DNA from: Thermosphaera sp.
GTDB taxonomy: Archaea; Thermoproteota; Thermoprotei_A; Sulfolobales; Desulfurococcaceae
Direction of reading: 5' to 3'
NCBI GenBank assembly: GCA_038827615.1
Contig: JAWBNK010000001.1
Span: 496,290-560,289 of the forward strand
Length of the DNA: 64,000 nt
Both the position numbers and the translations under genes were made by a program. Shown piece after piece: positions 12,846 through 26,675 of the stretch; position 1 is the stretch's first letter; each line of letters opens with the position of its first letter. The notes beneath the pieces were generated by a model that had not been told where the DNA came from, did no database searches, and saw only the letters and a program-made list of their open reading frames with translations.

Positions 12846-14276
12846 ATGGAGTCGCTAGGTAAGTATAGAGAGAACATTTTGAATGGGCCTATTGGGAGAA
12901 CATTACTCTGGCTTGGATTACCCCTAATGCTGGTCCAGCTGGTGAATATCTCGTACAATCTAGTCGACTCCTTTTGGCTCAGCAGGTACAATGAAATAGC
13001 TCTCGCTGTTCCGCGACAGGTCTGGCCGACTTTCATGTTTCTAAATTCGATCATACATGGGTTAATGACTGCAAATCTCGCAATAATCAGCCAGCTAATA
13101 GGGGGCAGGAGGTACGATGAAGCACACAAGACCGTTTCACAATTCATAACTGTTGCATTAGTCCTCAATATCGGTCTAGCGATAGCTTACTTCTATTCTA
13201 GACCATACATCTTTAAACATCTTGTTCAAACCCCTCTAGCCCTCTACGATGACGTTCTTGGATACTCAGGTGTAATATCCCTAGACATAATTCTCTCGGC
13301 TCTAACACTATCATACTCGACTATTCTTCAATCAATAGGCGATACAAGGACACCTGCATACGTGAATCTAGTTGCAGCCTTCACCAATTTCATCCTAGAT
13401 CCTCCATTTATAATAGGCCTCAGCATTAATGAATCCCTCGTAATACCCCCTATGGGTGCTGTTGGAGCCGCTGTCGCCACAGTGCTTTCTAGGTTTGCGG
13501 GACTGGCCGCGCTGATACTATTCCTGAGAAGGCGATACCCGTACCTGGCTCCCCGCCTCACTAGAAGATTAGATAAGAACTGGGTTTTGATGAGCCTTAA
13601 AATCGGGGCACCCGTGACTTTGATGATGTCATCCAACTCGCTGGCATTCATGTTTCAAAACGCATTGATCAATCAATACGGTGAATTCGTAGCGGCGGCA
13701 GCCGCCATAGGATTCTTACTGATGGATTTAGCAGACGCGTTTCTATGGGGCTTCACCAGTAGCGTAGCGGTGATGATCGGCCAATCACTTGGGGCCAACT
13801 TAACAAACAGGGCAAAGAGAGTGGCGAGGATCGCATCACTTTACATATCCGTGTCAACTGGAATAGCCGCCTTGATAGTATACGTGTTTAGAAATTACTT
13901 TATAGGTATATTTGCTCAAAACTCTATCGTATACGAGGAAGCTCAAAGATTCGTGGCCTTATTCCTTCCCAGCCTGCCGTTCTTCACGCTATTCTTTATA
14001 GGAATGTCTGTCGGTAGAGGGGCTGGAAAAACGCTGATTCCCACAATAATAGGGATGGTACGGCTCTGGGGGATTAGACTCGCTCTCGGCTATTTTCTCT
14101 CCTTCACGATGGGATTGGGCACTATGGGGATATGGATCTCAATGGCAATTAGTAACTACCTCTCCGGGATTGCCATGTATTTATGGGTTCACAACGGATC
14201 TTGGGCTATTTCACTATTCGCTAGCCAAGAGAAGATAGGCAAGATGGGTATAGGTAACAGGGTAATGAATAAGTGA
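12846..14276 (+). CDS. MATE-family multidrug/organic cation efflux protein
   Basis: 476 residues with about 12 hydrophobic segments in two similar halves, the MATE length and topology. LWLGLPLMLVQLVNISYNLVDSFWLSR at the start and the equivalent LKIGAPVTLMMSSN near residue 250 are the two family-typical first helices of each half. Exports cationic compounds by Na+ or H+ antiport. GAGGAAA precedes the ATG. Gap to the HAD gene is 10 bases, so it may be cotranscribed. Confidence 0.88.
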   Translation: MESLGKYRENILNGPIGRTLLWLGLPLMLVQLVNISYNLVDSFWLSRYNEIALAVPRQVWPTFMFLNSIIHGLMTANLAIISQLIGGRRYDEAHKTVSQFITVALVLNIGLAIAYFYSRPYIFKHLVQTPLALYDDVLGYSGVISLDIILSALTLSYSTILQSIGDTRTPAYVNLVAAFTNFILDPPFIIGLSINESLVIPPMGAVGAAVATVLSRFAGLAALILFLRRRYPYLAPRLTRRLDKNWVLMSLKIGAPVTLMMSSNSLAFMFQNALINQYGEFVAAAAAIGFLLMDLADAFLWGFTSSVAVMIGQSLGANLTNRAKRVARIASLYISVSTGIAALIVYVFRNYFIGIFAQNSIVYEEAQRFVALFLPSLPFFTLFFIGMSVGRGAGKTLIPTIIGMVRLWGIRLALGYFLSFTMGLGTMGIWISMAISNYLSGIAMYLWVHNGSWAISLFASQEKIGKMGIGNRVMNK

Positions 14277-14338: not shown

Positions 14339-15529
14339 ATGAGGATTGTTGGAATAGATCCGGGAACCAAATCAATGGACCTATGTCTCCTAGAAAACGG
14401 TAAAGTAGCAAGTGAAGCAACAGTTGAGACGAAAACAGTAGCCGAGGACCCCAACGTACTCATAAATATTATAAATGATATGATGCCCCTAGACGGAATA
14501 GTGGTGCCTTCGGGCTATGGAGTCGAAGTAATGGATTTAAGCAGTATTCCTCATGACGTGTTAGAGGATTGGTATTATACTTTCGTGCTAGCGACCACCA
14601 GGGAGAATATAGAGGAAGGTGTTCGAAAAGGAGTCGTAGGTGCTAACATTTATTATGCAATGGTTAAAATCATAAAGAGATTGTACGATTATGATGTTAG
14701 AAAACTCCTTATTCCAGGAGTAATAAATCTTCAAAGCGTTCCCCTGCATAGAAAGTTAAACAAGATTGATATGGGAACGGCCGACAAACTAGCTGTTACG
14801 GTTTTAGGAATACATGAGGTTGCTTTAGAATACGGTATCCCCTACGACCGAGTCAACTATATCCATGTGGAGCTTGGGTTCGGATACAACGCCGTTATAG
14901 GAGTGGAGAGAGGTAAAATAGTAGATGGAATCGGAGGATCATTCATGCCCGGACCAGGGTTTTTAACAGCGGGAGCATTGGACTTGGAAGTTGCTCAAGC
15001 ACTAGGGTTGATTGAGAAGAAAGAGGTTTTTACAACAGGGTGCGCTTATCTTGCTCGTGTAATGACTCCCGAAGAACTGGTTGAGAGAGCTGAGAATGAT
15101 TGGCGAGCTAAGATTTGCCTTGAGGCATTCATCGAGGGCATCGTCAAAGCAGTCTATTCAGTTAAAAGTAATGTGAGAAATCCATTAACTATATTGGTTT
15201 CAGGAAGAGTTGCAAAAATACCTCAAATCAGAACTGTGATTGAAGAGCACCTTGCAGACGTAGGAAGGGTCAGGGTTATGAAGGGTTTACAAGGGGCAAG
15301 GATTGTTAAGGAAACAGCACAAGGGTATGCCGTCGTTGGGGACGGGTTAATGAACGGACTTTACTCCGATCTAGTGAAGCACGTTGAGATCGACCGTGCT
15401 GTTGGAAGCGCTTTGGATTACGTGTTGCTTTCTGTCTTCAAGGATAGTAGGTTGGGGAGGAAATTTGCCGAGTTGAGAGAGGTTGGTTTTAAGAGCGAAG
15501 CTTTTAACAAAGCATGGTGGGGGATGTGA
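14339..15529 (+). CDS. DUF1464 protein (predicted sugar/acyl kinase-like ATPase)
   Basis: 396 residues from ATG 14339, picked because GAGGTG lies 6 bases upstream and the protein then opens with the ASKHA-type phosphate-binding motif MRIVGIDPGTKSMDLCLLENG. HVELGFGYNAVIG and DGIGGSFMPGPGFLTAGALD follow in the middle, and ILVSGRVAKIPQI in the adenosine region. This pattern is that of archaeal DUF1464 (COG2441, sometimes called predicted butyrate kinase); the true reaction is unknown. It is translationally coupled (GTGA overlap) to the DUF447 gene and then to an RFAP synthase gene, so a role around the pterin cofactor, for example phosphorylating an intermediate, is a reasonable hypothesis. Confidence 0.75.
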   Translation: MRIVGIDPGTKSMDLCLLENGKVASEATVETKTVAEDPNVLINIINDMMPLDGIVVPSGYGVEVMDLSSIPHDVLEDWYYTFVLATTRENIEEGVRKGVVGANIYYAMVKIIKRLYDYDVRKLLIPGVINLQSVPLHRKLNKIDMGTADKLAVTVLGIHEVALEYGIPYDRVNYIHVELGFGYNAVIGVERGKIVDGIGGSFMPGPGFLTAGALDLEVAQALGLIEKKEVFTTGCAYLARVMTPEELVERAENDWRAKICLEAFIEGIVKAVYSVKSNVRNPLTILVSGRVAKIPQIRTVIEEHLADVGRVRVMKGLQGARIVKETAQGYAVVGDGLMNGLYSDLVKHVEIDRAVGSALDYVLLSVFKDSRLGRKFAELREVGFKSEAFNKAWWGM

Positions 15530-16140
15530 ACCTTCGAGAAGGAGTTTGGTATGAATCGATATTCAGCGCCTTCATAACATCAAACCCCTATTTCACTCCT
15601 TTAGGTTTCCGTGTCAGCCAGAGGACAATAGAGCTGAAAATTTATCGAACAACGAAGGTGTCACTACTCATAGACTTGCTTGATAAAGCAGCTTTGAATG
15701 TGGTCGATGACCCATATTTATATTATTTGGCGACTTTCAAAGAAGAAACAGGTGGAATCCCTCAAAGCGAGATCAGTTTCTTGAATGGAATTCCAGTCCT
15801 GAAAAAAGCCTACGGGTATATCTTAATGAAGAAAAGAGGATTGGTGAAACACGAAAATACCTATCATGCGAGCTTTGAGATAGAGGAGATCGTCGAAAAT
15901 CCCCTTATTCCAGAGATCTTGGAACCCTATTCGAGATGCAGGGTGTTTCTAATAGAAATGATCATTTATGCTTCGAAGATAAAGGCCATGCGTGAAACTC
16001 TTGATAGTGATCTGCTTAACAAACTTAAGAGACAGGTGGAGGATTCCTATAAAATAGTTGAGAAAACCTGTTTTAATGAAAAAGACTTGAAACTAGCTAA
16101 TGAATTAAAGGAGATGGTGGCTCGGTGGTTGAAGAGATAA
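15526..16140 (+). CDS. DUF447 family protein (FMN-binding split-barrel-like)
   Basis: 204 residues from GTG 15526. That start overlaps the preceding stop as GTGA and has GGTGGGG just upstream. The N-terminal half matches the DUF447 pattern: GVWYESIFSAFITSNPYFTPLGFRV, IELKIYRTT and NVVDDPYLYY. This resembles flavin-reductase-type split barrels. The C-terminal 60 residues are helical. To my knowledge DUF447 proteins often lie beside beta-RFAP synthase in organisms that make methanopterin-type cofactors, which is exactly the arrangement here (15-base overlap). No reaction is assigned. Confidence 0.72.
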   Translation: MNLREGVWYESIFSAFITSNPYFTPLGFRVSQRTIELKIYRTTKVSLLIDLLDKAALNVVDDPYLYYLATFKEETGGIPQSEISFLNGIPVLKKAYGYILMKKRGLVKHENTYHASFEIEEIVENPLIPEILEPYSRCRVFLIEMIIYASKIKAMRETLDSDLLNKLKRQVEDSYKIVEKTCFNEKDLKLANELKEMVARWLKR

Positions 16141-17054
16141 TAATATCTGCGCCGGCACGTCTGCATCTAGGCATGATCAATCCGTTCAACAGGGATTTGA
16201 GACTGTACACAAGCGTGGGTCTTGCGATAGATCATCCGAGGACAACAGTGGTAGTCAGAAGAAACCGAGAGTTATCCATAAACGGACCTAGGAGTTTCGA
16301 GATAAGGGAGAGAATATACCCTTTAGTGAAAAAATATAATCTACAGGAAGGTGCCGTTGAAGTAATAGAGTCTATTCCTAAACATGTAGGGTTGGGTTCG
16401 ACCACTCAGCTTTTATTATCAGTTGCCAAAGGGCTTTTAATAGCTAATGAGGTCGAGTTTGATATTGAAGAAGTATCATCAATGTTAAGGGTTGGCGAAA
16501 TATCGGGTGTTGGGAAGTATGCTTTCCAATATGGTGGTTTTATAGTTGACTCAGGTGTGAAGAATAAGAGTTTTCCTAAACTTTACATGAGGCTTGATTT
16601 TCCCGAGGAGTGGGGGTTTATCGTAGTAGTTCCGAATGGTGTGGGACTCACTGACGATGAAGAGAAGAGGGTTTTCAGTCAAGCGTTCCCTGTTCCAGTC
16701 TCACTGATCCACGAGGCCTCGTTTCATCTATTCGTAGAAATGATACCATCACTGAAGGAAAAAGACCATGTAGGGTTTGCTGAGGGGCTTGAAAAATTTC
16801 AGCTAACTGTTGGTAAAATGTTTAGCGAATACCAGGGAGGGGTTTTTTCTACCTACTCAGAACGAGCAGTTCATACATTGAAGAAACTCGGTATTCGAGG
16901 TGTGGGGCAGTCTTCATGGGGACCGGCAGTGTACGGATTCCTGCCGAGCATTGACGAAGTTGATTATATTAGACAGAGAATATTGGATCAATTAAACGCC
17001 CGGGTCTATGTTGTTCGACCAGATAACAAAGGGGCTGTAGTAGAATACAAGTAA
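16125..17054 (+). CDS. Beta-ribofuranosylaminobenzene 5'-phosphate (RFAP) synthase
   Basis: 309-residue GHMP-superfamily protein. SAPARLHLGMINPFN is the N-terminal GHMP segment; IPKHVGLGSTTQLLLSVAKG is the nucleotide/PRPP-binding glycine-rich loop; IRGVGQSSWGPAVYGF near the C-terminus is the RFAP-synthase block. The enzyme condenses p-aminobenzoate (or p-hydroxybenzoate) with PRPP, releasing CO2 and PPi, the first committed step of the (tetrahydro)methanopterin arene-ribitol part. GTG 16125 overlaps DUF447. Its presence in a non-methanogen implies a modified folate of the sulfopterin or methanopterin type. Confidence 0.88.
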   Translation: MVEEIIISAPARLHLGMINPFNRDLRLYTSVGLAIDHPRTTVVVRRNRELSINGPRSFEIRERIYPLVKKYNLQEGAVEVIESIPKHVGLGSTTQLLLSVAKGLLIANEVEFDIEEVSSMLRVGEISGVGKYAFQYGGFIVDSGVKNKSFPKLYMRLDFPEEWGFIVVVPNGVGLTDDEEKRVFSQAFPVPVSLIHEASFHLFVEMIPSLKEKDHVGFAEGLEKFQLTVGKMFSEYQGGVFSTYSERAVHTLKKLGIRGVGQSSWGPAVYGFLPSIDEVDYIRQRILDQLNARVYVVRPDNKGAVVEYK

Positions 17055-17065
17055 ATAGGGCTAGG

Positions 17066-18553
17066 TTATAATGCCATGGCTGTTCCCTCGCTCCTCGGAT
17101 CATTCCCTAGAACTATGTTCTCCAACGTTATAACTCCTACGTGGACATGTCCAGGGGAGCTGTATGGTTGAATAATGTTAACCGGGATATTACTTGAGAC
17201 TGGCGGCTTTAAAGGCTGCTCCGCTACGACTTGTTGATGACCATAAGGTATAGTATATAGGAATCTTGGAGAGTCCAAGGCACCTGGAATACTCATGTGG
17301 TAAACGAATATATTCTCGTAAACTCTCAGATGAAGTTGTGGTCTGTAGTCTCCCCCTACACATCCGATAACGTATTTCTCTTTATCCGTTGAAACTCCCA
17401 GCACCGATAAAGTGTGAAGGGGAAGCTTCTTCGGGGCAGGACTGTTAGGCAAGCCCTTTGATTTCGCGAAGCCTATTCCCCTGTTCTGAACGGGAAACCC
17501 TCCTGCCACAAGTCCAGAGCCGAAGGGATGGAATAAGCTTTGGATAAAACCGATGGTTGCTTCCCCGTCGGACACGATGAAGAATGTGGTATCGCCATCA
17601 CCGACTGCCTCATTAGGACTTCTATGATCCTGGGGTAGCCTAGAATAATGAACGTAATCGTAGGGATTTATTGTAAGATAGTCTGGGTCCCCGAGATAGT
17701 TGTCTCTGAACATATAGGATACTTCTATTGGATGCGACCATGCCAGGATTCTGGAGGGATCGTTAAAATCATACTTATCCAATCCGAGCTCATGTAATGC
17801 TGAGATCAAATTTAAAGTGACAATACCCTGCGAGTTAGGTGGGAGCTCGAATAACTGTTTTCCATCAAGCTCAAGCTTTAAAGGGTCCACTCTCCAACCT
17901 TCATGCTCCATGAAGTCCTCCAGCCCCAAGTCAACACCCTGTTCTTGGAGTTCGGCCACCAGTTCTTCCGCGATCCTTCCATAATAAAACTCATCCCACC
18001 CTCTTGTTGCTATCATTCTAAGCGTTCGAGCGGCATCCTTGTTGGTGACGAGAGATCCGACTTGAATATTGCTGAAATATTTCGACCACTTGTAAGGAGA
18101 CAACTTATCGTGATAAGATTTTGAAGAATGAGCTAAAAACCAGCCAGCTCGAAAACCATTGTAGGCGATCGAAATTGCCCGTCTTAACAACACGGATAGC
18201 GGCAGAGTTCCATATTCCTCGTTGATCATCCCCCATAAATAGACAAGCCCCGGGATTGTGACGGTTAAGGGACCCACCTCGGCCTTCACTTCTAGATACT
18301 TGTCGGGATCGAACCCTGAGGGGGATCTTCCAGAGGATGCGTACGCGATTACTTCATCATTGACAAATCCTAATAAGAATCCATCCCCTCCGGGGCCTCC
18401 CATTTGAGGTTGAACAATCGATAGAACACTGCTTACGGCTATGGCGGCATCGAAGGCGTTACCACCCTCCTCGAGGATTTCTATACCTGCTTTTACAGCA
18501 AGATAGTGATCTGCAGTTACCCCTTTCTTACCGAGAGCGATTTTAACTGGCAC
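17066..18553 (-). CDS. Gamma-glutamyltransferase-like Ntn hydrolase
   Basis: 495 residues. GGNAFDAAIAVSSVLSIVQPQMGGPGGDGFLLG is the GGT opening, and SGRSPSGFDPDKY holds the arginine that binds the glutamyl carboxylate in GGTs. The autoprocessing site is GDGDTTFFIVSDGEATIGFIQS, in which the Thr after DT becomes the nucleophile. The usual DTTH histidine is replaced by Phe. No signal peptide is seen, so it is probably cytosolic, unlike bacterial GGT. It converges on RFAP synthase (11-base gap) and lies 28 bases behind the CoA-transferase gene. It may act on glutathione-like peptides or on gamma-glutamyl tails. Confidence 0.85.
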   Translation of the reverse strand: MPVKIALGKKGVTADHYLAVKAGIEILEEGGNAFDAAIAVSSVLSIVQPQMGGPGGDGFLLGFVNDEVIAYASSGRSPSGFDPDKYLEVKAEVGPLTVTIPGLVYLWGMINEEYGTLPLSVLLRRAISIAYNGFRAGWFLAHSSKSYHDKLSPYKWSKYFSNIQVGSLVTNKDAARTLRMIATRGWDEFYYGRIAEELVAELQEQGVDLGLEDFMEHEGWRVDPLKLELDGKQLFELPPNSQGIVTLNLISALHELGLDKYDFNDPSRILAWSHPIEVSYMFRDNYLGDPDYLTINPYDYVHYSRLPQDHRSPNEAVGDGDTTFFIVSDGEATIGFIQSLFHPFGSGLVAGGFPVQNRGIGFAKSKGLPNSPAPKKLPLHTLSVLGVSTDKEKYVIGCVGGDYRPQLHLRVYENIFVYHMSIPGALDSPRFLYTIPYGHQQVVAEQPLKPPVSSNIPVNIIQPYSSPGHVHVGVITLENIVLGNDPRSEGTAMAL

Positions 18554-18581
18554 AGTAAAACTCCTCCACCTAGACGTGTGC

Positions 18582-19760
18582 TCACGGGTAAAAAACTACT
18601 CCATTTTCCTTTAATTTTTTGATTTCGTCCTCCGAGTATCCGAGTTCCCTTAATACTTGCTTAGTGTCTTCACCTAGTACTGGAGGTGCTTTAACGCTTA
18701 CAGGCCTTTCTCCATTAACGTAGCCGGGGGATGTTAGTTGAGGTATACTTCCTAATTTAGCGTGTTTGACTTGGAAAACCATACCTTGGCTGCTAACGTA
18801 GGGATCTTTGAAAACCTCATCTAACTCGTACACTGGTGCAGCGGGTACTCCGGCTTCTTCCAGTTTTTTGATCCAATAGTCCCTAGTGTTTGTTGAGAAA
18901 ATCTCTTGGAGAAGGTGAATTAATAAATCTCTATTTGCAACTCGATCTGGATTCGTTCTAAAGCGTGGATCACTTGTCAACTCCTCGTGTCCGATGGCTT
19001 TGCAGAAGTTTATCCATAATCTATCATTGGCTGCCGCAACAATGAACCATTTACCTTCACTGTCCTGAAAAGCCTGATATGGTACCATAGAGGGGTGTGC
19101 ATGACCCATTCTCCTCGGCTTTCTTCCAGTAGTCAGATACATCATGGGGACATAGCACATCGAGAAAATGGCGGTGTCATACATTGGTATCTCTAGCTTT
19201 ACTGGCCTAACGTTGCTGTAAAGACTTGCGAGTATGTAGTTGACTGCTACTAAGCCGGTTATTACATCAAATAGAGCGAAACTCACCCTGACAGGCGGAG
19301 CTCCTTCCTCACCGGTGGTAGTCATCAATGCCGACATTGCTTGAATAATTAGATCATAAGCAGGTTTTTGCTCATAGATGCTGTCCTTTTTAAACCCCTT
19401 GATGCTAGCGTATATGAGATTCGGATTTAATTTCACGAGCGTCTCGTAATCTACACCTAGTTTCTCGGCAACCCCAGGTCTAAAGTTTTCTATGACTACG
19501 TGCACCTTCTTGACGAGTTCATAAATTATTTTCAATCCCTCGGGATCTTTCAAATTTACAACAACACTCTTCTTTCCTCTGTTAATAGAGAGATAATAGG
19601 AGCTCTCCCCATTAACGAATGGAGCCCAAGTCCTCGTTTCATCTCCGGTCGGAGACTCTATCTTGATGACCTCTGCACCGAGGTCAGCTAACACCATTGT
19701 TGCGAAAGGACCTGCAAGGGTGTGACTTAAATCGAGGATTTTAAGCCCCTTAAGCAGCAT
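18582..19760 (-). CDS. Family III (CaiB/BaiF) CoA-transferase
   Basis: 392 residues. Family III hallmarks: ILDLSHTLAGPFATMVLADLGAEVIKIE at the start, INRGKKSVVVNLKDPEGL and VIENFRPGVAEKLG after it, and the catalytic aspartate region RVSFALFDVITGL (about residue 170). It moves CoA between carboxylic acids through an aspartyl-CoA anhydride; the substrate cannot be read. It follows the KaiC-like gene by 34 bases in a leftward run with pterin genes. Whether it belongs to the pathway or is only adjacent is open. Confidence 0.88.
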   Translation of the reverse strand: MLLKGLKILDLSHTLAGPFATMVLADLGAEVIKIESPTGDETRTWAPFVNGESSYYLSINRGKKSVVVNLKDPEGLKIIYELVKKVHVVIENFRPGVAEKLGVDYETLVKLNPNLIYASIKGFKKDSIYEQKPAYDLIIQAMSALMTTTGEEGAPPVRVSFALFDVITGLVAVNYILASLYSNVRPVKLEIPMYDTAIFSMCYVPMMYLTTGRKPRRMGHAHPSMVPYQAFQDSEGKWFIVAAANDRLWINFCKAIGHEELTSDPRFRTNPDRVANRDLLIHLLQEIFSTNTRDYWIKKLEEAGVPAAPVYELDEVFKDPYVSSQGMVFQVKHAKLGSIPQLTSPGYVNGERPVSVKAPPVLGEDTKQVLRELGYSEDEIKKLKENGVVFYP

Positions 19761-19794
19761 TACGATTCACCAATAGATTGATAATTCATTGAAG

Positions 19795-20586
19795 TTAAAA
19801 TTTATTTTTTGAAGATTTCAAAACCACAGGTTTAACCCCTTCTTTGTCAATGGTGAAAAGCGTCCATACAGCCTTGTGTGGAACTCCTTTCATCTTTCTG
19901 ACTAGTATTTGTCTTAAGGAAATTTCAAGCTCTCCGAGTTCCCTCTCCTTTAGGCTTCCTAACTCGATTATTCCATCGACGAGATGTTCAATGTTGAGGA
20001 GATATGATAAGAAATCTTCAGTTGAGGTATGAAGCGATGCTATCGTCGCAACACCCCGGTGTTTGGCTATGTTTGCTCGAATAGTTTTGACAAATTCAAT
20101 GATCCTAGTAGGATCGAGAGTTATCATGATTTCATTTAAACTATCTATTATCAGCACTCCTGTATTGTTCATTTTAAATGAGTCGACATTCTTTATGAGG
20201 GAGTAAACCACGCTCTCTATGTCGTTGGGATTGACCTCATCGATCACCATTGGGTGCGCCCTGCCCTTCTTACCTTTTATCAGGTAACTGAACCCGTCTA
20301 TAATGCCAAACCTTTGTTCCCTGAATGCGGTTTCGACGTCGGTATTATAGGATTTCAATTGCTCTACTATCGTTGCTGGGTCGTCGTCAAGAGTCAAGTA
20401 TAAGAGAGGCTCGCCCTCGGTGATCACCGATTTAGCAATATTTGCCAGCAAGACGCTTTTTCCTGCCCCTCCTTCTCCAGCTATAATTATGAGGGAGTTT
20501 CTCTTAACCCCTTCTGGTAGAACGTAGAGTAAAATATCTACATTAAATACGATCTTATTGCTTGACAAAATTATCACACAATACAA
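19795..20586 (-). CDS. KaiC/RadA-like RecA-superfamily ATPase, single domain
   Basis: About 260 residues. Walker A GEGGAGKS (about 35-42) and Walker B GVLIIDSLNE fit the KaiC/GvpD/FlaH group; no DNA-binding extension is seen. An ATP-dependent assembly or regulatory role is typical of such stand-alone proteins. No strong ribosome site marks the start: TTG 20586 is the longest choice, while GTG 20577 or TTG 20568 (behind GTGAT) are possible. It lies 80 bases behind the dihydropteroate-synthase-related gene, in the same direction. Confidence 0.72.
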   Translation of the reverse strand: MYCVIILSSNKIVFNVDILLYVLPEGVKRNSLIIIAGEGGAGKSVLLANIAKSVITEGEPLLYLTLDDDPATIVEQLKSYNTDVETAFREQRFGIIDGFSYLIKGKKGRAHPMVIDEVNPNDIESVVYSLIKNVDSFKMNNTGVLIIDSLNEIMITLDPTRIIEFVKTIRANIAKHRGVATIASLHTSTEDFLSYLLNIEHLVDGIIELGSLKERELGELEISLRQILVRKMKGVPHKAVWTLFTIDKEGVKPVVLKSSKNKF

Positions 20587-20666
20587 AATGTTACATAGCC
20601 CTCTAATAAATCAGACGTGTTTTCTGAAACTCAAGGATGACGTATATTTGCAGAGTTTATCAAGAA

Positions 20667-22208
20667 TCAAATTGGCTCTCGATCCGGGAATAAATCTGAA
20701 TCTTGAACGTAATCCTTCCCTAGCTTCAACGCGATCTCCGCCTTACACAGTTCTCTACCCAGATAATAGAAGTGTTCAGGCTTCGTTGCCAACTTTCTCT
20801 GCAAGATTTCACCAATAATCAGCGATGGGTCGTCTCCAATAATCGATATACTTGGAACCATAGATCCATGGTAGTAATGTTCTACAATTATGGACTTGCC
20901 CGCGTGATCCACGTAGATCTTGAAATACCCAGCGGGGTCGGCCGTGTGGGGGACACGTTTGCTGGCTACAGCAGCATTTTGAACGTCTTTGGGTCTAACA
21001 CCTCTACGCCTCTTATCTTTGCAGACGAGTAGATTGAGCGTGAAATCTTTTGGGTACCGCCCCTTCTCTCTCGCAAGAAGCGCCATCTCTATCGCTGTCT
21101 TGAACTCCCTTATAGAATTAGTTGTCTTAACGCTTGCTTCGGTTAAAAGGAATAATTCTACACCTATCTCAACACCTATTGTTGCTAGAACAGCGTTTAC
21201 TCCAATACTGTCTGCATCGATGAGTTCTACATAATTACTGACCCCCATTAGCATGGGGACGTCGGGAAAATGCTTCTTTACTTGGATGTACGCGTATACG
21301 GATTCTACGAACCCCTTCATCGGGGGGTAGAGGACAGGATCTAGAAGGATCTTCTTATGCCCTTGCCTCAGACCTTCCTCTAGACCTTTCTTTAAACTGA
21401 TCACTTTCTCATCAGCGGAGATTGCATTGTGGTCTGGGATTATTACTATGGCTGTTTTCTCAAACGACTGTTTGAATAATGATTTTTGAAGAAACTCGGG
21501 GGTGAAACTGAGAAGAATGTCGAATTCCCCATCTTGTAAGGAAGCTATCTCTTCTTGGCGTGGGAAGTCTACCCCAAGTGGAACGTCTAGCTTCTTTCTT
21601 ATCGATTTTGAGACATCTAGTAACTGTTCGAGGGTCAATCGACTGGTCCCAAGCACAATGATATCAGCTCCTTCAGACAAGTACCTCTTAATATTAAAGA
21701 GGACATCTTCAACGTTGTCGTGTTCGTTTAAGAATATTTCACCCGCTATTAACGGAAATCTGCTCGTCAGGGGTTTACCGCCTATGCGGGTTTGAGAGTT
21801 CTCGGCCTCTTTTCTCAGCCTGTCAAGTATCTCCTTCTCGCTCATCCTTTTATTTTCTGAAACCAGTTCATCAAGCGGATTTAGAGTAGATAGCTCTCCT
21901 CCATTCATTAAGTATTCGATCATAAATGGGATATCGTCGGCATATAGACAACCCTTGTAAACCGGTTTTCCAAGCCTTTTACTCACTTCTGCTAAATCCC
22001 CTTTAGTCATTCCGGGGACAATGATGATGTCCGACCAGTCGACATGCTCCTTGTAGCGGGGGAGTTCTCGCAAGAGGTATTCGCTGGTCATCATCGCGGC
22101 AACGGGTATCGGTAGCTCGAGAACCTTCATGTCAACCTGAGTAATGTTTTTAACACTCTTGTGTATAAGGGGAGCGGCAACTCTTCCAGTAACTAAGAGT
22201 ATCTTCAA
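20667..22208 (-). CDS. Dihydropteroate synthase-related protein (archaeal TIGR00284 type)
   Basis: 513 residues, far longer than bacterial FolP (about 280). The N-terminal domain (about 1-140) begins MKILLVTGRVAAPLI and holds IIVPGMTKGDL. The central part (about 150-360) is TIM-barrel DHPS-like: FPLIAGEIF, GADIIVLGTS, PLGVDFPRQEE, KKILLDPVLYPP. The C-terminal 130 residues resemble the small slr0651-type (DUF4346) domain (IYVDHAGKSIIVEHYYHG). This three-part layout is that of the archaeal proteins found where bacterial DHPS is missing, and it is thought to join the pterin and RFA-P halves of methanopterin. Starts at TTG, two bases after the previous stop. It follows mptA-mptE-mptD and the DmrX-like gene, which strongly supports that role. 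Confidence 0.88.
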   Translation of the reverse strand: MKILLVTGRVAAPLIHKSVKNITQVDMKVLELPIPVAAMMTSEYLLRELPRYKEHVDWSDIIIVPGMTKGDLAEVSKRLGKPVYKGCLYADDIPFMIEYLMNGGELSTLNPLDELVSENKRMSEKEILDRLRKEAENSQTRIGGKPLTSRFPLIAGEIFLNEHDNVEDVLFNIKRYLSEGADIIVLGTSRLTLEQLLDVSKSIRKKLDVPLGVDFPRQEEIASLQDGEFDILLSFTPEFLQKSLFKQSFEKTAIVIIPDHNAISADEKVISLKKGLEEGLRQGHKKILLDPVLYPPMKGFVESVYAYIQVKKHFPDVPMLMGVSNYVELIDADSIGVNAVLATIGVEIGVELFLLTEASVKTTNSIREFKTAIEMALLAREKGRYPKDFTLNLLVCKDKRRRGVRPKDVQNAAVASKRVPHTADPAGYFKIYVDHAGKSIIVEHYYHGSMVPSISIIGDDPSLIIGEILQRKLATKPEHFYYLGRELCKAEIALKLGKDYVQDSDLFPDREPI

Positions 22209-22210
22209 TA

Positions 22211-22927
22211 TTAAACACTCTCAAGAAGTTTCAATATCTCACGGGGATGTTTTATTATTTTGACACCAGGCATCTCTTTCAAATTATCCAGGATCATCTT
22301 GTAGTATGCATTGGGCTTTAATGTTATTTCGACGTCGAATTTTATTGCATCAAAGGGACAGTGGTCGAGACACTTGTAACATTTTTTGCATTTAAATGGT
22401 TCAACCCTTACTATCCAGTAATCGTCCCTCATTAGGGCTCCAGTTGGGCAGGCATTTGCTGCCACACATTGACTACACTGGGAGCATTTCCTACGATCGA
22501 CTTTTAAAGGAATCCTGCTTGATGTTTCAAAATAATCAACGGGGAGAATAAACAATTCTATATTGTTTTTCAAAGCGTGGGAGGCTAAATTAGTCACTAA
22601 AGAGTCCGATATCCCGTAAATGATTTTGCTCGAAGTATTCAAAGTAGCAGGCGAGATAACCGCAAATCTATAAATATCTGAATAGAGCCTTCCCGTAGAG
22701 GGAAAACCAGGGGCTTCTCTGGACTCAAGCACCAGCCCTGTTGGGTATGGCCCCTTTAAATTATCTGCGAGTCTGGCGGTAAGACCATAGTAGTCGAGTA
22801 AAGCCTCCCCGGCTTTAGAACAATACACTGTTACAGGGATCTTCAAGTGAAGTAATTCTAGGATGGTTTCAACTGATTCCTCTAAAAAAGGTCCTGCGCC
22901 CGTTATACCCCAAGCAACAGCACCCAT
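22211..22927 (-). CDS. Archaeoflavoprotein fused to 2[4Fe-4S] ferredoxin (DmrX/AfpA-like dihydropterin reductase)
   Basis: 239 residues from ATG 22927. The N-terminal 140 residues are a UbiX/Dfp-like flavoprotein (GITGAGPFLEESVETI, VISPATLNTSSKIIYGISDSLVTNL). The C-terminal part carries two clusters, CSQCSQCVAANACP and CKKCYKCLDHCP. This fusion matches Methanosarcina DmrX, dihydromethanopterin reductase, and archaeoflavoprotein AfpA. It would reduce dihydro- to tetrahydro-pterin with ferredoxin electrons as the last step of the cofactor pathway. It sits between mptD and the DHPS-like gene with gaps of 3 and 2 bases. Confidence 0.82.
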   Translation of the reverse strand: MGAVAWGITGAGPFLEESVETILELLHLKIPVTVYCSKAGEALLDYYGLTARLADNLKGPYPTGLVLESREAPGFPSTGRLYSDIYRFAVISPATLNTSSKIIYGISDSLVTNLASHALKNNIELFILPVDYFETSSRIPLKVDRRKCSQCSQCVAANACPTGALMRDDYWIVRVEPFKCKKCYKCLDHCPFDAIKFDVEITLKPNAYYKMILDNLKEMPGVKIIKHPREILKLLESV

Positions 22928-22930
22928 CAA

Positions 22931-23317
22931 TTATCTTTCCTCTTTAATTTCTTCAATGTATGCGAGGTTATAATCTAACTCTGGGACGTATCTAAGTGAT
23001 GCCTTGACGACGGCCTTGCCGTACTTTACGACCACATTTACGACCATGTTTCTTGTTTTTAAAGTTGAGTAATTGTAGGGTGAATCAGAGTTCTTGAAAT
23101 CAATGTTGATTACCACCTTGGCATCCTGCTTAAAAGGCTGTGCTTTAATTGCGTTTTCAATAACTTTTTCGAGAGCCTTAGCATCTTCGGGTGTTTTCAC
23201 CGGGATACCTGTGAATTGGTGTACAACCATTCCTAGAGCTATTCCGGCTTCAAAAGCCGCCCTTTCCCGATCGCTAACTTCTCTATGGAAGTATTTTCTC
23301 GCCGGGTCATAACTCAT
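22931..23317 (-). CDS. mptD: Archaeal dihydroneopterin aldolase MptD
   Basis: Cleaves 7,8-dihydroneopterin to 6-hydroxymethyl-7,8-dihydropterin and glycolaldehyde. 128 residues from ATG 23317. The start is set by GGAGGTGG 5 bases upstream, and it overlaps mptE by 11 bases. The helix ERAAFEAGIALGMVVHQFTGIPV is the characteristic MptD (DUF372) segment, and the tail VKASLRYVPELDYNLAYIEEI closes the fold. It is unrelated to bacterial FolB. Flanking mptE and mptA confirm the assignment. Confidence 0.92.
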   Translation of the reverse strand: MSYDPARKYFHREVSDRERAAFEAGIALGMVVHQFTGIPVKTPEDAKALEKVIENAIKAQPFKQDAKVVINIDFKNSDSPYNYSTLKTRNMVVNVVVKYGKAVVKASLRYVPELDYNLAYIEEIKEER

Positions 23318-24047
23318 GAATGCCACCTCCCACATGTAGGAACTGAACTCCTCTTTCTTGAAGGCTCTTCAGTAATAATCTCGCAATTTCCAACTTCCTC
23401 TTTTTAACTCTCTTATTGAAAGGAACCAGTTTCCCGGGGCATGAGTGCGGCTCTCCCATTAAATCGAAACCAGCTAAGTAGTTTCTATTAATGCCCAGTG
23501 CTAGTGCAACGAAAACTCCTCGATCACCATCTGTGAAGCCTCCGAAATTATAAACATGAGGTCTTGGTTCAACTTGAGTTGAACCTAATAAACGTCCTTT
23601 GAACATTGGAACGAATCTTGTAATCCTATCAACATTATCTCCGTGTGCATGTATAATTGTTACTGCGCCATTAAGGGAAGCTCGGAGAATATCAGCAATC
23701 AAGCCATCGAGATCTGAGACGATAATATTGGGGATTATGTTATGTTTTAGAAGGATCGTAGTAGCGCCATCAGCAGCTATAAGGAGTTTTCCACTTAGCT
23801 CTCCCTTCTCAACGAGATGTTCAATATCTTGCACTAGACTCTCTCCACAACCGAACACTATCGCCTCCTTAACTCCAACGAACATCGTTTTAAGCTCTGC
23901 ATATTCCATGACGTAAGGATGCGAGCTTAATACGTTGCTTAATAGATCAGTAGCTTCTTGATCCGCCTTGAAGTTTAAGCTCAGATTCTTCATTATAATG
24001 TTTTCATATATCTCCATCCACCAGGATTTCTCTACGAGCCAACTCAT
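23307..24047 (-). CDS. mptE: 6-hydroxymethyl-7,8-dihydropterin pyrophosphokinase MptE
   Basis: 246 residues with the MptE (DUF115) core LLIAADGATTILLKHNIIPNIIVSDLDG, followed by IIHAHGDNVDRI and NFGGFTDGDRGVFVALALG. The acidic SDLDG and HGDN motifs bind Mg-ATP. It activates the pterin alcohol for coupling to RFA-P. The start ATG overlaps mptA's stop (ATGA), with GGTGA six bases upstream; the stop overlaps mptD. It is the archaeal replacement for FolK. Confidence 0.92.
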   Translation of the reverse strand: MSWLVEKSWWMEIYENIIMKNLSLNFKADQEATDLLSNVLSSHPYVMEYAELKTMFVGVKEAIVFGCGESLVQDIEHLVEKGELSGKLLIAADGATTILLKHNIIPNIIVSDLDGLIADILRASLNGAVTIIHAHGDNVDRITRFVPMFKGRLLGSTQVEPRPHVYNFGGFTDGDRGVFVALALGINRNYLAGFDLMGEPHSCPGKLVPFNKRVKKRKLEIARLLLKSLQERGVQFLHVGGGIHEL

Positions 24048-24907
24048 TTATCTTCACCATAAATGTGCTCAAATTCTTTAACATGTCCTCCTACTCGGCT
24101 GACTACTCGGTATTGGTGGATGGTTTCAAAAGACACTACTTCGACAAATACCGTGTCATTTGGATTGAGGATTTTACCGTGTTTTTTAAAAAACATTGTT
24201 AAAACTTTTCTCGCAGCATCCTCAGTGAACCTCGGCTCAGAGAATATTTTGTTCACGAAAATTGCTTCCTCCTTCCTAGATAAGAGATTTATTGGCATGT
24301 TCACCGTGTTTATCAACAAGTCGAGGAGAGTGAGCGGAGATATGAGTTGCATACTGGATTCAACTCTTAATGATACTCTAGCTTTCTGCATGTGGGTTGC
24401 CTGAGTATTAAATAAGAAATTTGAGACCTTGAGGGCACAAGGGCATGCTAAAACATCCTCGACCTCAGCATAGCTTACCCACCTAATAACTCCCTGAGTC
24501 TTCTTATAAATTACACTGCATCCTAAAATCGCGTGATTAAGACCCTTATTGCTTTCGAAAAAATATTCTCCATGAATTTCTATTATTGCTTTTTCAGCGT
24601 AATCATTCGATTCAAAGATTTTCACAGCTAAGTCCAGTATCCCATCAAACCCTTTTTCTTGAATCAGATTATAATTTTCCCATATTACTCTATATAATCG
24701 TGACAAATGCGCACCACGCAACTCCTTGGGTAGGTCGACATAAACATTAAAAACGGGGATTAGAAACCCATTTCCAATTCGCAAAGGGGGGAGCTTGATA
24801 TCGGAGATTCCCACACTATCGATCGGTATAGGGTATTGGGGTTTTTCGATATGAACATCTGGTAGTTCATTGCTTCTCATCGAGTATGTCACTTCCGCTT
24901 GTTTCAT
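24044..24907 (-). CDS. mptA: GTP cyclohydrolase MptA (FolE2/IB type)
   Basis: 287 residues. Converts GTP to 7,8-dihydroneopterin 2',3'-cyclic phosphate with Fe(II) or another divalent metal. LPDVHIEKPQYPIPIDSVGISDI at the start, KGAHLSRLYR-like (RGAHLSRLYRVIWE) in the middle and EDVLACPCALKVS with the metal-binding cysteine are GTP-cyclohydrolase-IB features, as is HLxR. ATGA overlap with the thioredoxin-like gene in front. The next enzyme in the methanogen route, the cyclic phosphodiesterase MptB, is not in the window. Confidence 0.92.
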   Translation of the reverse strand: MKQAEVTYSMRSNELPDVHIEKPQYPIPIDSVGISDIKLPPLRIGNGFLIPVFNVYVDLPKELRGAHLSRLYRVIWENYNLIQEKGFDGILDLAVKIFESNDYAEKAIIEIHGEYFFESNKGLNHAILGCSVIYKKTQGVIRWVSYAEVEDVLACPCALKVSNFLFNTQATHMQKARVSLRVESSMQLISPLTLLDLLINTVNMPINLLSRKEEAIFVNKIFSEPRFTEDAARKVLTMFFKKHGKILNPNDTVFVEVVSFETIHQYRVVSRVGGHVKEFEHIYGEDK

Positions 24908-25446
24908 AATTTAACGGGACTTTTTACTTCTCTTGTAGCCTTCTCGAGAAATAACTGAATCGCGTCTGTCAATTGGTCCATTCTTTTGACGCCCTCGATC
25001 TTTTCTTGCCGAACTATCCTTCCATTATCGGAGTAAAGTAGCAGAGTTGTTGGTGATGCATGAATTTCATATTTGAGAAAGCTTCCGCTAGCTATCTCAG
25101 AGTCGCACTCTCTTGCAAACCAATCACATAATACTATGACGTAATGACTCTTAGGGAATGTTGGGCCAATCAGTTTAACAAATGGATACCAGTAAGAGTC
25201 GTATGCTCTGCACGCGGGGCATTTGGCATTATCGAAGTAAATTACGTACAATCCATCCTCCCATGGATTGAAAAAGTCTCCATTAATGTACTTCAATACC
25301 CATTTTGCTTTCATCGGGTCAAACACGTAGATTCCATTGGGGGCCTCCGGACCAACAGCGTCGACCTCCAGCCCTATCTCAGGCTTGTATTTCTTCTCCG
25401 GTCTTTCCAACAGCTTCTTAAGCAACTCTATAATCTCATCGTTCAT
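24904..25446 (-). CDS. Thioredoxin-fold protein with CPAC motif, head of the pterin operon
   Basis: 180 residues from ATG 25446, which has GTGAT just upstream. A thioredoxin-like domain spans about 60-170: YVIYFDNAKCPACRAYDSYW holds the CPAC redox pair, and the cis-Pro region is HASPTTLLLY. A third and fourth Cys (VLCDWFARECD) are extra. The N-terminal 55 residues are charged and lack a signal peptide, so it is probably cytosolic. ATGA overlap with mptA means coupled translation. It may keep the cysteines or Fe(II) of MptA or the DmrX-like protein reduced, or belong to the oxygen-defence block beside it. Confidence 0.75.
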   Translation of the reverse strand: MNDEIIELLKKLLERPEKKYKPEIGLEVDAVGPEAPNGIYVFDPMKAKWVLKYINGDFFNPWEDGLYVIYFDNAKCPACRAYDSYWYPFVKLIGPTFPKSHYVIVLCDWFARECDSEIASGSFLKYEIHASPTTLLLYSDNGRIVRQEKIEGVKRMDQLTDAIQLFLEKATREVKSPVKL

Positions 25447-25572
25447 GGTAATCACTCATATTATATTTATCAATATTATAAGGAATTTATGTTTTAATGA
25501 TATCCTTTGAACCTCTTGAAAAAATAAACTTATTAGATAGTTTTATTATTTTCTAAATTGGTGAGACTAAAA
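25447..25572. promoter_or_regulatory. Divergent promoter between pterin operon and superoxide reductase operon
   Basis: 126 bases, very AT-rich. Leftward, GATAAATATAATATG (about 25457-25471, minus strand) is a TATA candidate for the thioredoxin-mptA run. Rightward, AAATAAACTTATTAGATAG (about 25522-25540) lies 35-50 bases before the SOR start. The octamer ATATTATA is repeated directly at 25459 and 25474 and could be a regulator half-site pair. The Lrp-type regulator of the SOR operon is the obvious candidate. Confidence 0.4.
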
Positions 25573-25944
25573 ATGGGGTTAAAAGAACTCATCTATGAGC
25601 CGGGAACCGCAAAAGGGGAGGCCTTAGCAAAGGTTGAGTCGCACACTCCTAAAATAGATGCACCCGAAGTCGTAAAGGCTGGAGAAGTATTCAAGGTTAA
25701 GGTATGGGTTGGGCCCCATCCAAATACAGTGGAGCATAGTATACGATGGATAGAGCTGTATTTTGAAGAGCAAGGAAGGCCTTTCAATCCCGTACTGATA
25801 GGTCGGTATGAGTTTACACCTGTGTATAGTGAACCGATCGTCGAGACTTATATCAAGCTGTCTAAATCAGGAAAACTGATAGCATTAGAATATTGCAATC
25901 TACATGGATTGTGGGAGTCAAGCAAAGAGATACGAGTGGAATAA
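25573..25944 (+). CDS. sorA: Superoxide reductase (neelaredoxin type, one iron centre)
   Basis: Reduces superoxide to peroxide without making oxygen. 123 residues from ATG 25573 (GGTGAG 8 bases upstream). Centre-II ligands are all present: H24, H49, H55, C108 and H111 (ESHTP, HPNTVEH, YCNLHG). The mobile glutamate (E22) is kept, but the lysine that normally follows it (EKH) is Ser23, giving ESH. No N-terminal desulforedoxin domain, so it is a 1Fe-SOR. Followed by two cotranscribed genes, a CxxC protein and an Lrp-type regulator. Confidence 0.94.
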   Translation: MGLKELIYEPGTAKGEALAKVESHTPKIDAPEVVKAGEVFKVKVWVGPHPNTVEHSIRWIELYFEEQGRPFNPVLIGRYEFTPVYSEPIVETYIKLSKSGKLIALEYCNLHGLWESSKEIRVE

Positions 25945-25945
25945 C

Positions 25946-26245
25946 GTGACCTCCAAATACGAGCTAAGAGGTAAGATTTTTTCCTCAATACTTAATTATA
26001 ACAGGATGAGAAGCCCGGAAGCAACAGCATCGCTTCTCGAATTTGATGAAGATAATCAATCATTTAAGGTCGAGTTTTCCGGACCGTTTTGCCTATCATG
26101 CGGAGTAAAGGATTGGATCGAGGATCTGGCTTATATCCTTAAAGAGGAAGGAATTGATGCAGAATTGAAAGACTATATTGAGAAGGATGAGTTTAAAATT
26201 GAGGCCACATTTAAAGTTACGGTGGTGAAAGACGATGGACATTGA
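25946..26245 (+). CDS. Small unknown CxxC protein cotranscribed with superoxide reductase
   Basis: 99 residues from GTG 25946, one base after the SOR stop; a longer frame reaching into sorA exists but would duplicate its end. I recognise no family. Visible: an acidic alpha/beta protein with a central PFCLSCGVKDW motif, in which the two cysteines follow a beta strand and precede a helix (DWIEDLAYILKEEGI), and a C-terminal strand ATFKVTVVKDD. The CxxC could be a thiol redox pair or half of a metal site. Its place between sorA and the regulator suggests a role in oxidative stress. Confidence 0.7.
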   Translation: MTSKYELRGKIFSSILNYNRMRSPEATASLLEFDEDNQSFKVEFSGPFCLSCGVKDWIEDLAYILKEEGIDAELKDYIEKDEFKIEATFKVTVVKDDGH

Positions 26246-26675
26246 CGAGATAGATATGCTTATTATCAAGGAGCTGTCTGAGAACGCTAGGAAAACCTAC
26301 AGTGAGATAGCTGACAAGTTGAATTTAAGCGATGTAGCGATAATAAAGAGAGTAAGAAAACTTGAAACTGAGGGAGTCATTCGAAAATACGCCCTAGTAG
26401 TTGATGCTGGAAAGATAGGCTTTAAAAAGATCTCGTTTACTGGTATCAACGTTAAGCCAGAAAGACTTTTCGAAGTTGTTAGAATATTGAAGGAGAAAGA
26501 TTACATTAAATACTTAGCTATAACCTCAGGAGACCACGAGTTATTAGCGGTAATCTGGGCAAGAGATAGCGAAGAATTGCAGAGAATTCACATGGAGATT
26601 AGTAGCATTGAGGGAGTGATAAATATATATCCTGCTATATTAACGGATATTGTCAAAGCGGAGCAGTATGTTTAG
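26235..26675 (+). CDS. Lrp/AsnC-family transcriptional regulator
   Basis: 146 residues, full family length. The N-terminal winged HTH is EIDMLIIKELSENARKTYSEIADKLNLSDVAIIKRVRKLETEGVI; the C-terminal RAM/ACT-like domain runs from about 65 to 146. ATG 26235 has GGTGGTGA just upstream and overlaps the CxxC gene by 11 bases. Position at the end of the SOR operon suggests control of this operon, perhaps also of the divergent pterin operon. Confidence 0.9.
   Translation: MDIDEIDMLIIKELSENARKTYSEIADKLNLSDVAIIKRVRKLETEGVIRKYALVVDAGKIGFKKISFTGINVKPERLFEVVRILKEKDYIKYLAITSGDHELLAVIWARDSEELQRIHMEISSIEGVINIYPAILTDIVKAEQYV

Follow-up and report, generated by a model that had tools for sequence, protein, structure and literature searches.

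A probable methanopterin- or sulfopterin-type cofactor island in Thermosphaera and two families tied to its pathway, DUF1464 and DUF447

Gene content of the island

Knowledge of the folate substitutes that non-methanogenic archaea use, of their genes as well as of their chemistry, is still incomplete. The subject of this work is an island of pterin cofactor genes in a Thermosphaera genome (G000; 1.36 Mb, 99.98% complete), the type species of this genus being a hyperthermophilic, strictly anaerobic, fermentative organism that grows on yeast extract and peptides (PMC3035292). The window, that is, the whole stretch of 64,000 nucleotides that was analysed (G000:C1:496290-560289), was examined through open reading frame (ORF) calls and Pfam and NCBIfam profile scans, on which the gene names are based. 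All genes named in an earlier note on this DNA are found where it placed them, as two convergent runs. It is probable that the island makes the host's own tetrahydromethanopterin (H4MPT)- or sulfopterin-type one-carbon (C1) carrier, and that two families, DUF1464 and DUF447, belong to the core of the pathway, the former acting as a kinase and the latter as a reductase. The genes that bear on this proposal are the following.

14339..15529, + strand: DUF1464 (PF07318, 265 bits), an ASKHA-fold ATPase and predicted hydroxyl kinase
15514..16140, + strand: DUF447 (PF04289, 32 bits against a cut-off of 24), a candidate flavoprotein reductase
16125..17054, + strand: RFAP synthase (RFAPS, mptG-type), clade A (TIGR00144, 116 bits against a cut-off of 113.5)
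20667..22208, - strand: DHPS-like TIGR00284 protein with DUF6513 and PterinBD-DUF4346 domains (TIGR00284, 355 bits against a cut-off of 257; PF14251, PF20123)
22211..22930, - strand: DmrX-like dihydromethanopterin reductase, a flavoprotein with two 4Fe-4S motifs (PF02441, PF00037; TIGR02700, 175 bits against a cut-off of 251)
22931..23335, - strand: MptD, archaeal dihydroneopterin aldolase (PF04038, 121 bits)
23307..24047, - strand: MptE-like 6-hydroxymethylpterin diphosphokinase (PF01973, 79 bits)
24044..24907, - strand: GTP cyclohydrolase of the MptA/FolE2 family (PF02649, 136 bits)

The matches to PF02649, PF04038 and PF01973 all lie above their cut-offs, and the MptA/FolE2 cyclohydrolase, MptD and MptE families are therefore present. 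The cyclohydrolase scores 116 bits with the MptA model TIGR00294 (cut-off 220) and 88 bits with the FolE2 model, also under its cut-off; because the TIGR02700 and TIGR00294 scores fall short, the names DmrX-like and MptA are to be read at the family level only. Within the leftward run, which is opened by a thioredoxin-like gene described below, the successive junctions down to the TIGR00284 gene measure -4 (ATGA), -4 (ATGA), -29, 0 and 2 nt, and KaiC-like, CoA-transferase III and GGT genes follow on the same strand after gaps of 80, 34 and 28 nt. The rightward run, from DUF1464 through DUF447 to RFAPS, shows 16-nt overlaps at both junctions, and 11 nt separate the end of RFAPS from the GGT stop, between the convergent runs. 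The DUF1464 start at 14339 gives a protein beginning MRIVGIDPGT, and an in-frame GTG also lies upstream, at 14273. ORFs, hidden Markov models (HMMs) and junctions thus bear out the layout described in the earlier note, with the mpt genes in one leftward run and RFAPS, DUF447 and DUF1464 converging on it. MptB is indeed missing from the window, and none of the six HD-domain proteins of the genome is assignable as MptB; two of them are possible candidates, namely L201 (G000:C1:830478-830717, 260 aa) and L197 (G000:C1:176012-176317, approximately 202 aa).

The known route to the methanopterin skeleton is for the most part covered by the island (MptA/FolE2 family, MptE, MptD, RFAPS, TIGR00284 and the DmrX-like protein), and the families are those that serve pterin formation, arene-riboside formation, coupling and reduction in methanogens, where the set comprises MptA, MptB, MptD, MptE, RFAPS, the TIGR00284 DHPS-like protein and dihydromethanopterin reductase. 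The gene families present support the claim that this non-methanogen has a cluster for making a modified folate of the methanopterin/sulfopterin type. Judged by the families to which they belong, MptA, MptD and MptE would generate the pterin half, RFAPS would convert phosphoribosyl pyrophosphate (PRPP) and an arene carboxylate into an aryl C-riboside 5'-phosphate, the TIGR00284 enzyme would couple the two halves, and the DmrX-like enzyme would carry out ring reduction. The system differs from that of methanogens in including DUF1464, absent from the Methanocaldococcus jannaschii and Methanosarcina acetivorans controls, and in a genome that lacks Mch and PurB, besides the lack of MptB in the window.

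Association of DUF1464 and DUF447 with the pathway

A single set of 300 Thermoproteota genomes was scanned for DUF1464, TIGR00284, DUF447 and RFAPS, with 80 genomes positive for DUF1464 and, over cut-off, 99 for DUF447, 97 for RFAPS and 77 for TIGR00284. By hand count, about 32 of the 80 genomes, representing roughly 10 families, have RFAPS less than 10 kb from DUF1464, where random placement in genomes of this size predicts one or two. The comparison of neighbourhoods drew on 60 fetched regions and, from GTDB genomes, on 80 named loci of DUF1464. Their genes were mapped by means of the window proteins and of HMMs derived from these, and a cluster was defined as holding at least three of MptA, MptD, MptE, TIGR00284 and RFAPS (31 clusters). 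DUF447 occurs in 28 of the 31 and DUF1464 in 24, with 24 distinct gene orders overall. The DUF1464 count is biased upward by the many loci fetched through DUF1464 itself, and more weight falls on the rearrangement of the gene orders and on the phylum scan, which is free of this bias. The association is also seen in Ignisphaera, Vulcanisaeta, Bathyarchaeota, Hadesarchaea (L174, L177) and Archaeoglobi (L187, L189). The comparison across Thermoproteota that the earlier note had proposed consequently places both families in the pathway, as it had supposed, and comparative genomics identifies them as core members in non-methanogenic archaea, with DUF1464 tied specifically to RFAPS by gene association. 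Clustering of the neighbours yielded only one more recurrent gene, of an unknown family of approximately 250-290 aa, that adjoins TIGR00284 in four families (L072, L073, L074, L075). In the library of papers that was searched, there is no mention of DUF1464, COG2441 or PF07318.

The tie to RFAPS is also visible in the phylogenies. In a tree of 48 RFAPS sequences, 12 form a clade, RFAPS_B, with 100/100 support, whose members lie mostly apart from mpt genes, never beside DUF447 or TIGR00284, and adjoin DUF1464 in 10 of the 12 cases; in the two other genomes they are apart from a lone DUF1464_B. The DUF1464 tree is parted in the same manner, a 100/100 branch separating neighbours of RFAPS_A from neighbours of RFAPS_B, with clade A located in mpt clusters and clade B forming a two-gene RFAPS-DUF1464 unit. 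Loci at which RFAPS_B was seen paired with its own DUF1464 clade are L058, L063, L070, L099, L100, L103, L107, L108, L111, L163, L169 and L173. Both RFAPS clades are encoded in four genomes (G161, G179, G019, G237), and in several Thermoproteota the RFAPS_B-DUF1464_B pair occurs alongside complete A sets. Three Methanosarcinales metagenome-assembled genomes carry RFAPS_B followed by two DUF1464 genes in tandem (L163, L169, L173). Families that were both duplicated and still remain together, as RFAPS and DUF1464 do, in all likelihood have one compound as their common target. Two unassigned families are in this manner singled out from a run of candidates, one of them tied to a specific enzyme by co-duplication.

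Some variations in gene content were seen during these comparisons. Four genomes (G017, G049, G134, G235) encode the RFAPS-DUF447-DUF1464 triple and give no TIGR00284 match, in which case either another DHPS must perform the coupling or the triple has a different job. Eight genomes (G113, G290, G012, G060, G267, G272, G277, G256) encode, besides the full-length TIGR00284 protein, a second, shorter one (mostly approximately 400-460 aa, with the C-terminal part of the model unmatched). In Vulcanisaeta sp. JCM 14467 (L157), the DUF1464 and TIGR00284 genes each look split in two, by frameshift or draft error.

Predicted activities of the two families

The AlphaFold2 model of DUF1464 (predicted local distance difference test 93.9, predicted template modelling score 0.94) has, by Foldseek, the ASKHA fold of the acetate/butyrate kinase subgroup. 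All of its 39 best matches in the PDB belong to the butyrate, acetate or propionate kinases (E from 5e-15, template modelling (TM) scores 0.5-0.6), with whole-length fold matches to 1saz, 1x9j and 1g99 (E 1e-13, TM approximately 0.6), and are followed by ROK sugar kinases (6jdb, TMt 0.67); the sequence profile likewise matches butyrate kinase 2 (E 1e-8). Among 49 sequences, the segment aligned to the ERSG loop of butyrate kinase 2 (positions 200-212) holds no conserved Arg or Lys, and no column exceeds 45% Cys, so that a conserved Cys is also absent. Activity as a carboxylate kinase, which the fold would fit, was rejected since the substrate Arg is absent. What DUF1464 has instead are two invariant blocks in its 49 relatives, PSGYG and RKxNxIDxGTxDK (K139, D144, G146, T147, D149 and K150 in the window protein), the latter of which we take to occupy the place of the catalytic His in the acetate kinase family. 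In this fold, an invariant Asp at that place would be apt to act as a base towards a hydroxyl acceptor. Since the carboxylate-binding Arg is missing and this Asp is invariant, DUF1464 is predicted to be an ATP-dependent hydroxyl kinase of the aryl-riboside branch, which would phosphorylate a hydroxyl of the RFAPS substrate or product.

An extension of this prediction, put forward tentatively, is that DUF1464 adds a new kinase step to the aryl-riboside chemistry of archaea and that the RFAPS_B-DUF1464_B pair possibly makes, besides the folate-type carrier, a second and different C-aryl-riboside compound. This B module is an open lead that could mean more than a variant of a folate-type pathway. 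A somewhat doubtful alternative would have DUF1464 work on the tail of the cofactor, where, once the pterin is assembled, it would phosphorylate a hydroxyl of the ribitol or ribose as non-methanogens build their side chain; such a role would suit both the likeness to ROK sugar kinases and the occurrence of DUF1464 mainly outside the classical methanogens, where side chains differ from that of methanopterin, but the B module, in which DUF1464 accompanies RFAPS alone with neither DUF447 nor TIGR00284 adjoining, points to the aryl riboside.

The source of the arene amine bears on a further alternative. A search for chorismate-binding enzymes of the PabB/TrpE family (PF00425) found no match in the window genome and was positive in 14 of 14 controls, and PurB (TIGR00928) gave no match in this genome or in four others (G185, G232, G002, G101). 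In M. jannaschii, the route passes through an N-succinyl arene, which PurB cleaves to set the aryl amine free (White 2011, as cited in PMC3261824); the enzyme that acts upstream of PurB is left unnamed there. With neither a chorismate-binding enzyme nor PurB, the genome encodes neither of the two known ways to the aryl amine, the PurB route being thereby rejected for it, and the absences in a near-complete genome suggest that the arene may be taken up from outside or formed by a route not yet known. One could imagine, then, that DUF1464 activates the phenolic oxygen of hydroxybenzene riboside phosphate for replacement by an amine, which is the missing phenol-to-aniline step of methanopterin synthesis. 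Hydroxybenzene riboside phosphate is the RFAPS product from 4-hydroxybenzoate. An ATPase-fold protein linked to RFAPS, in a genome where the known p-aminobenzoate (pABA) route from chorismate is closed, speaks for such a step, as does the N-succinyl intermediate of M. jannaschii; the reading is nevertheless unlikely, as the known second half, PurB, is missing from all five genomes and M. jannaschii performs the conversion without DUF1464. A hydroxyl kinase acting on the aryl riboside, or on its precursor, is the role preferred here.

With regard to DUF447, a profile of 19 relatives matches the solved structures 2nr4 (E 1e-17), 2iml, 2ptf (MTH_863) and 3b5m, with E values from 1e-9 to 1e-17; the likeness is one of profiles, the window copy being divergent (11-25% identity to its relatives). 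These entries carry no function name, and 2ptf is, we believe, a structure with bound flavin mononucleotide (FMN). To our knowledge, no enzyme has been assigned to the reduction that opens the ribofuranose. The most economical proposal is for this reason that DUF447 is a candidate flavin reductase for the RFAPS-derived part, most plausibly catalysing the reductive opening of the ribofuranose to 1-deoxyribitol. Its genes widely adjoin RFAPS or mpt genes; profile scans also find the family in methanogens and haloarchaea, which implies a role broader than that of DUF1464. A search of the literature on Methylobacterium Orf7, a possible DUF447 protein, found no functional data. DUF1464 and DUF447 are in this sense specific candidates for pathway steps that are still unsolved, and a vague gap is reduced to a few enzyme assays.

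The carrier and its island

The window genome encodes SHMT and ThyX and gives no match to PF02289, the profile of Mch, so that this marker of the methanogenic/methylotrophic C1 cycle is absent. Most likely, the carrier is used to make thymidylate and glycine, the finished cofactor supplying SHMT and ThyX and moving C1 units from serine to thymidylate (dTMP). Among the controls, Sulfolobus acidocaldarius resembles the window genome in having SHMT, ThyX, DUF1464, DUF447, RFAPS and TIGR00284 and no Mch, and Sulfolobus SHMT works with sulfopterin (PMC3697235); Sulfolobaceae differ in that their pathway genes are scattered and their DUF1464 is shorter (approximately 300 aa).

Several observations weigh against the proposal as a whole. 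Only one of four archaeal controls, S. acidocaldarius, encodes DUF1464 (M. jannaschii, M. acetivorans and Haloferax volcanii do not), and it cannot be a universal step of H4MPT synthesis. RFAPS and DUF447 are present and DUF1464 is absent in G149 and G214, while G155 lacks all three and yet keeps ThyX; the idea that carrier synthesis was lost there together with ThyX accordingly failed. Haloarchaea use folate despite having RFAPS-like and DUF447 proteins (PMC8305020), and the steps, substrates and products given to the two families are ones that we infer. A sister species of G155 in the same genus (G044) has the whole cluster (L095), and the two make a natural loss pair.

The haloarchaeal case raises the possibility that the island yields ordinary tetrahydrofolate, or else a precursor in common with it, and that its RFAPS-like gene has another role; HVO_2628 is considered not to be an RFAPS (PMC8305020). 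The window RFAPS passes TIGR00144 and falls under the cut-off of the stricter equivalog NF040726 (153 against 328 bits), and alignment places an Asn at the site of D19, one of two residues that, together with R26, affect pABA binding in the Methanothermobacter thermautotrophicus enzyme (PMC6787355). The D19N variant of that enzyme is, however, still active, R26A being the inactive one (PMC6787355), and the window protein keeps R26 along with the glycine-rich and QSSWGP motifs. With TIGR00284 also above its cut-off, and Sulfolobus, of the same order, using sulfopterin (PMC3697235), synthesis of ordinary folate is highly unlikely. Both D19 and R26 are missing from RFAPS_A in several lineages of the order Sulfolobales (L086, L095, L098, L106, L109), and clade B mostly retains them; the loss of both residues suggests that the arene substrate may differ among lineages.

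Four further genes of the island are of another kind.

17066..18553, - strand: GGT-like protein (PF01019, Pfam), local passenger
18582..19760, - strand: CoA-transferase family III (PF02515, 388 bits), local passenger
19795..20586, - strand: KaiC-like ATPase (PF06745, 83 bits), local passenger
24904..25455, - strand: thioredoxin-like CPAC protein (no Pfam match), opening the leftward run

These four, as well as MATE and HAD genes, each occur in three of the 31 mpt clusters, all from Thermosphaera, and were for this reason rejected as parts of the pathway; L092 and L093 are the only loci with the thioredoxin-like gene at the corresponding position. In Desulfurococcus, the GGT/CoA-transferase/KaiC block adjoins RFAPS while the mpt run lies elsewhere, and none was found in the other lineages sampled. 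Their confinement to Thermosphaera and partly Desulfurococcus argues for local synteny, and the remaining genes of the run would be lineage-local passengers. The earlier note had offered the KaiC-like, CoA-transferase, GGT-like and CPAC proteins as candidates for missing steps, which these counts do not bear out, and its suggestion of glutamyl tailoring finds no support anywhere in the data. Genes of this sort, the MATE and HAD genes included, illustrate how DUF1464 and DUF447 might likewise be neutral neighbours held by local synteny; that is most improbable, given an association that persists through the 24 gene orders, the roughly 10 families, Hadesarchaea and Archaeoglobi, and the co-duplication of DUF1464 with RFAPS. 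Scarcely tenable is the idea that DUF1464 might be a low-potential electron activase driven by ATP, akin to the activators of 2-hydroxyacyl-CoA dehydratases, for which weak profile similarities to 4eht (E 0.005) and TIGR00241 (E 1e-4) could be cited, since the Cys that would bridge a 4Fe-4S cluster in the benzoyl-CoA reductase/2-hydroxyacyl-CoA dehydratase activases is not conserved, no Fe-S site is shared by the 49 sequences, and the family was rejected as an Fe-S activase on this ground.

On the opposite strand, 102 nt from the thioredoxin-like gene, begins a group (window 25558-26675) composed of a desulfoferrodoxin/superoxide reductase-like gene and, after it, an orphan of 113 aa and a regulator of the AsnC type.

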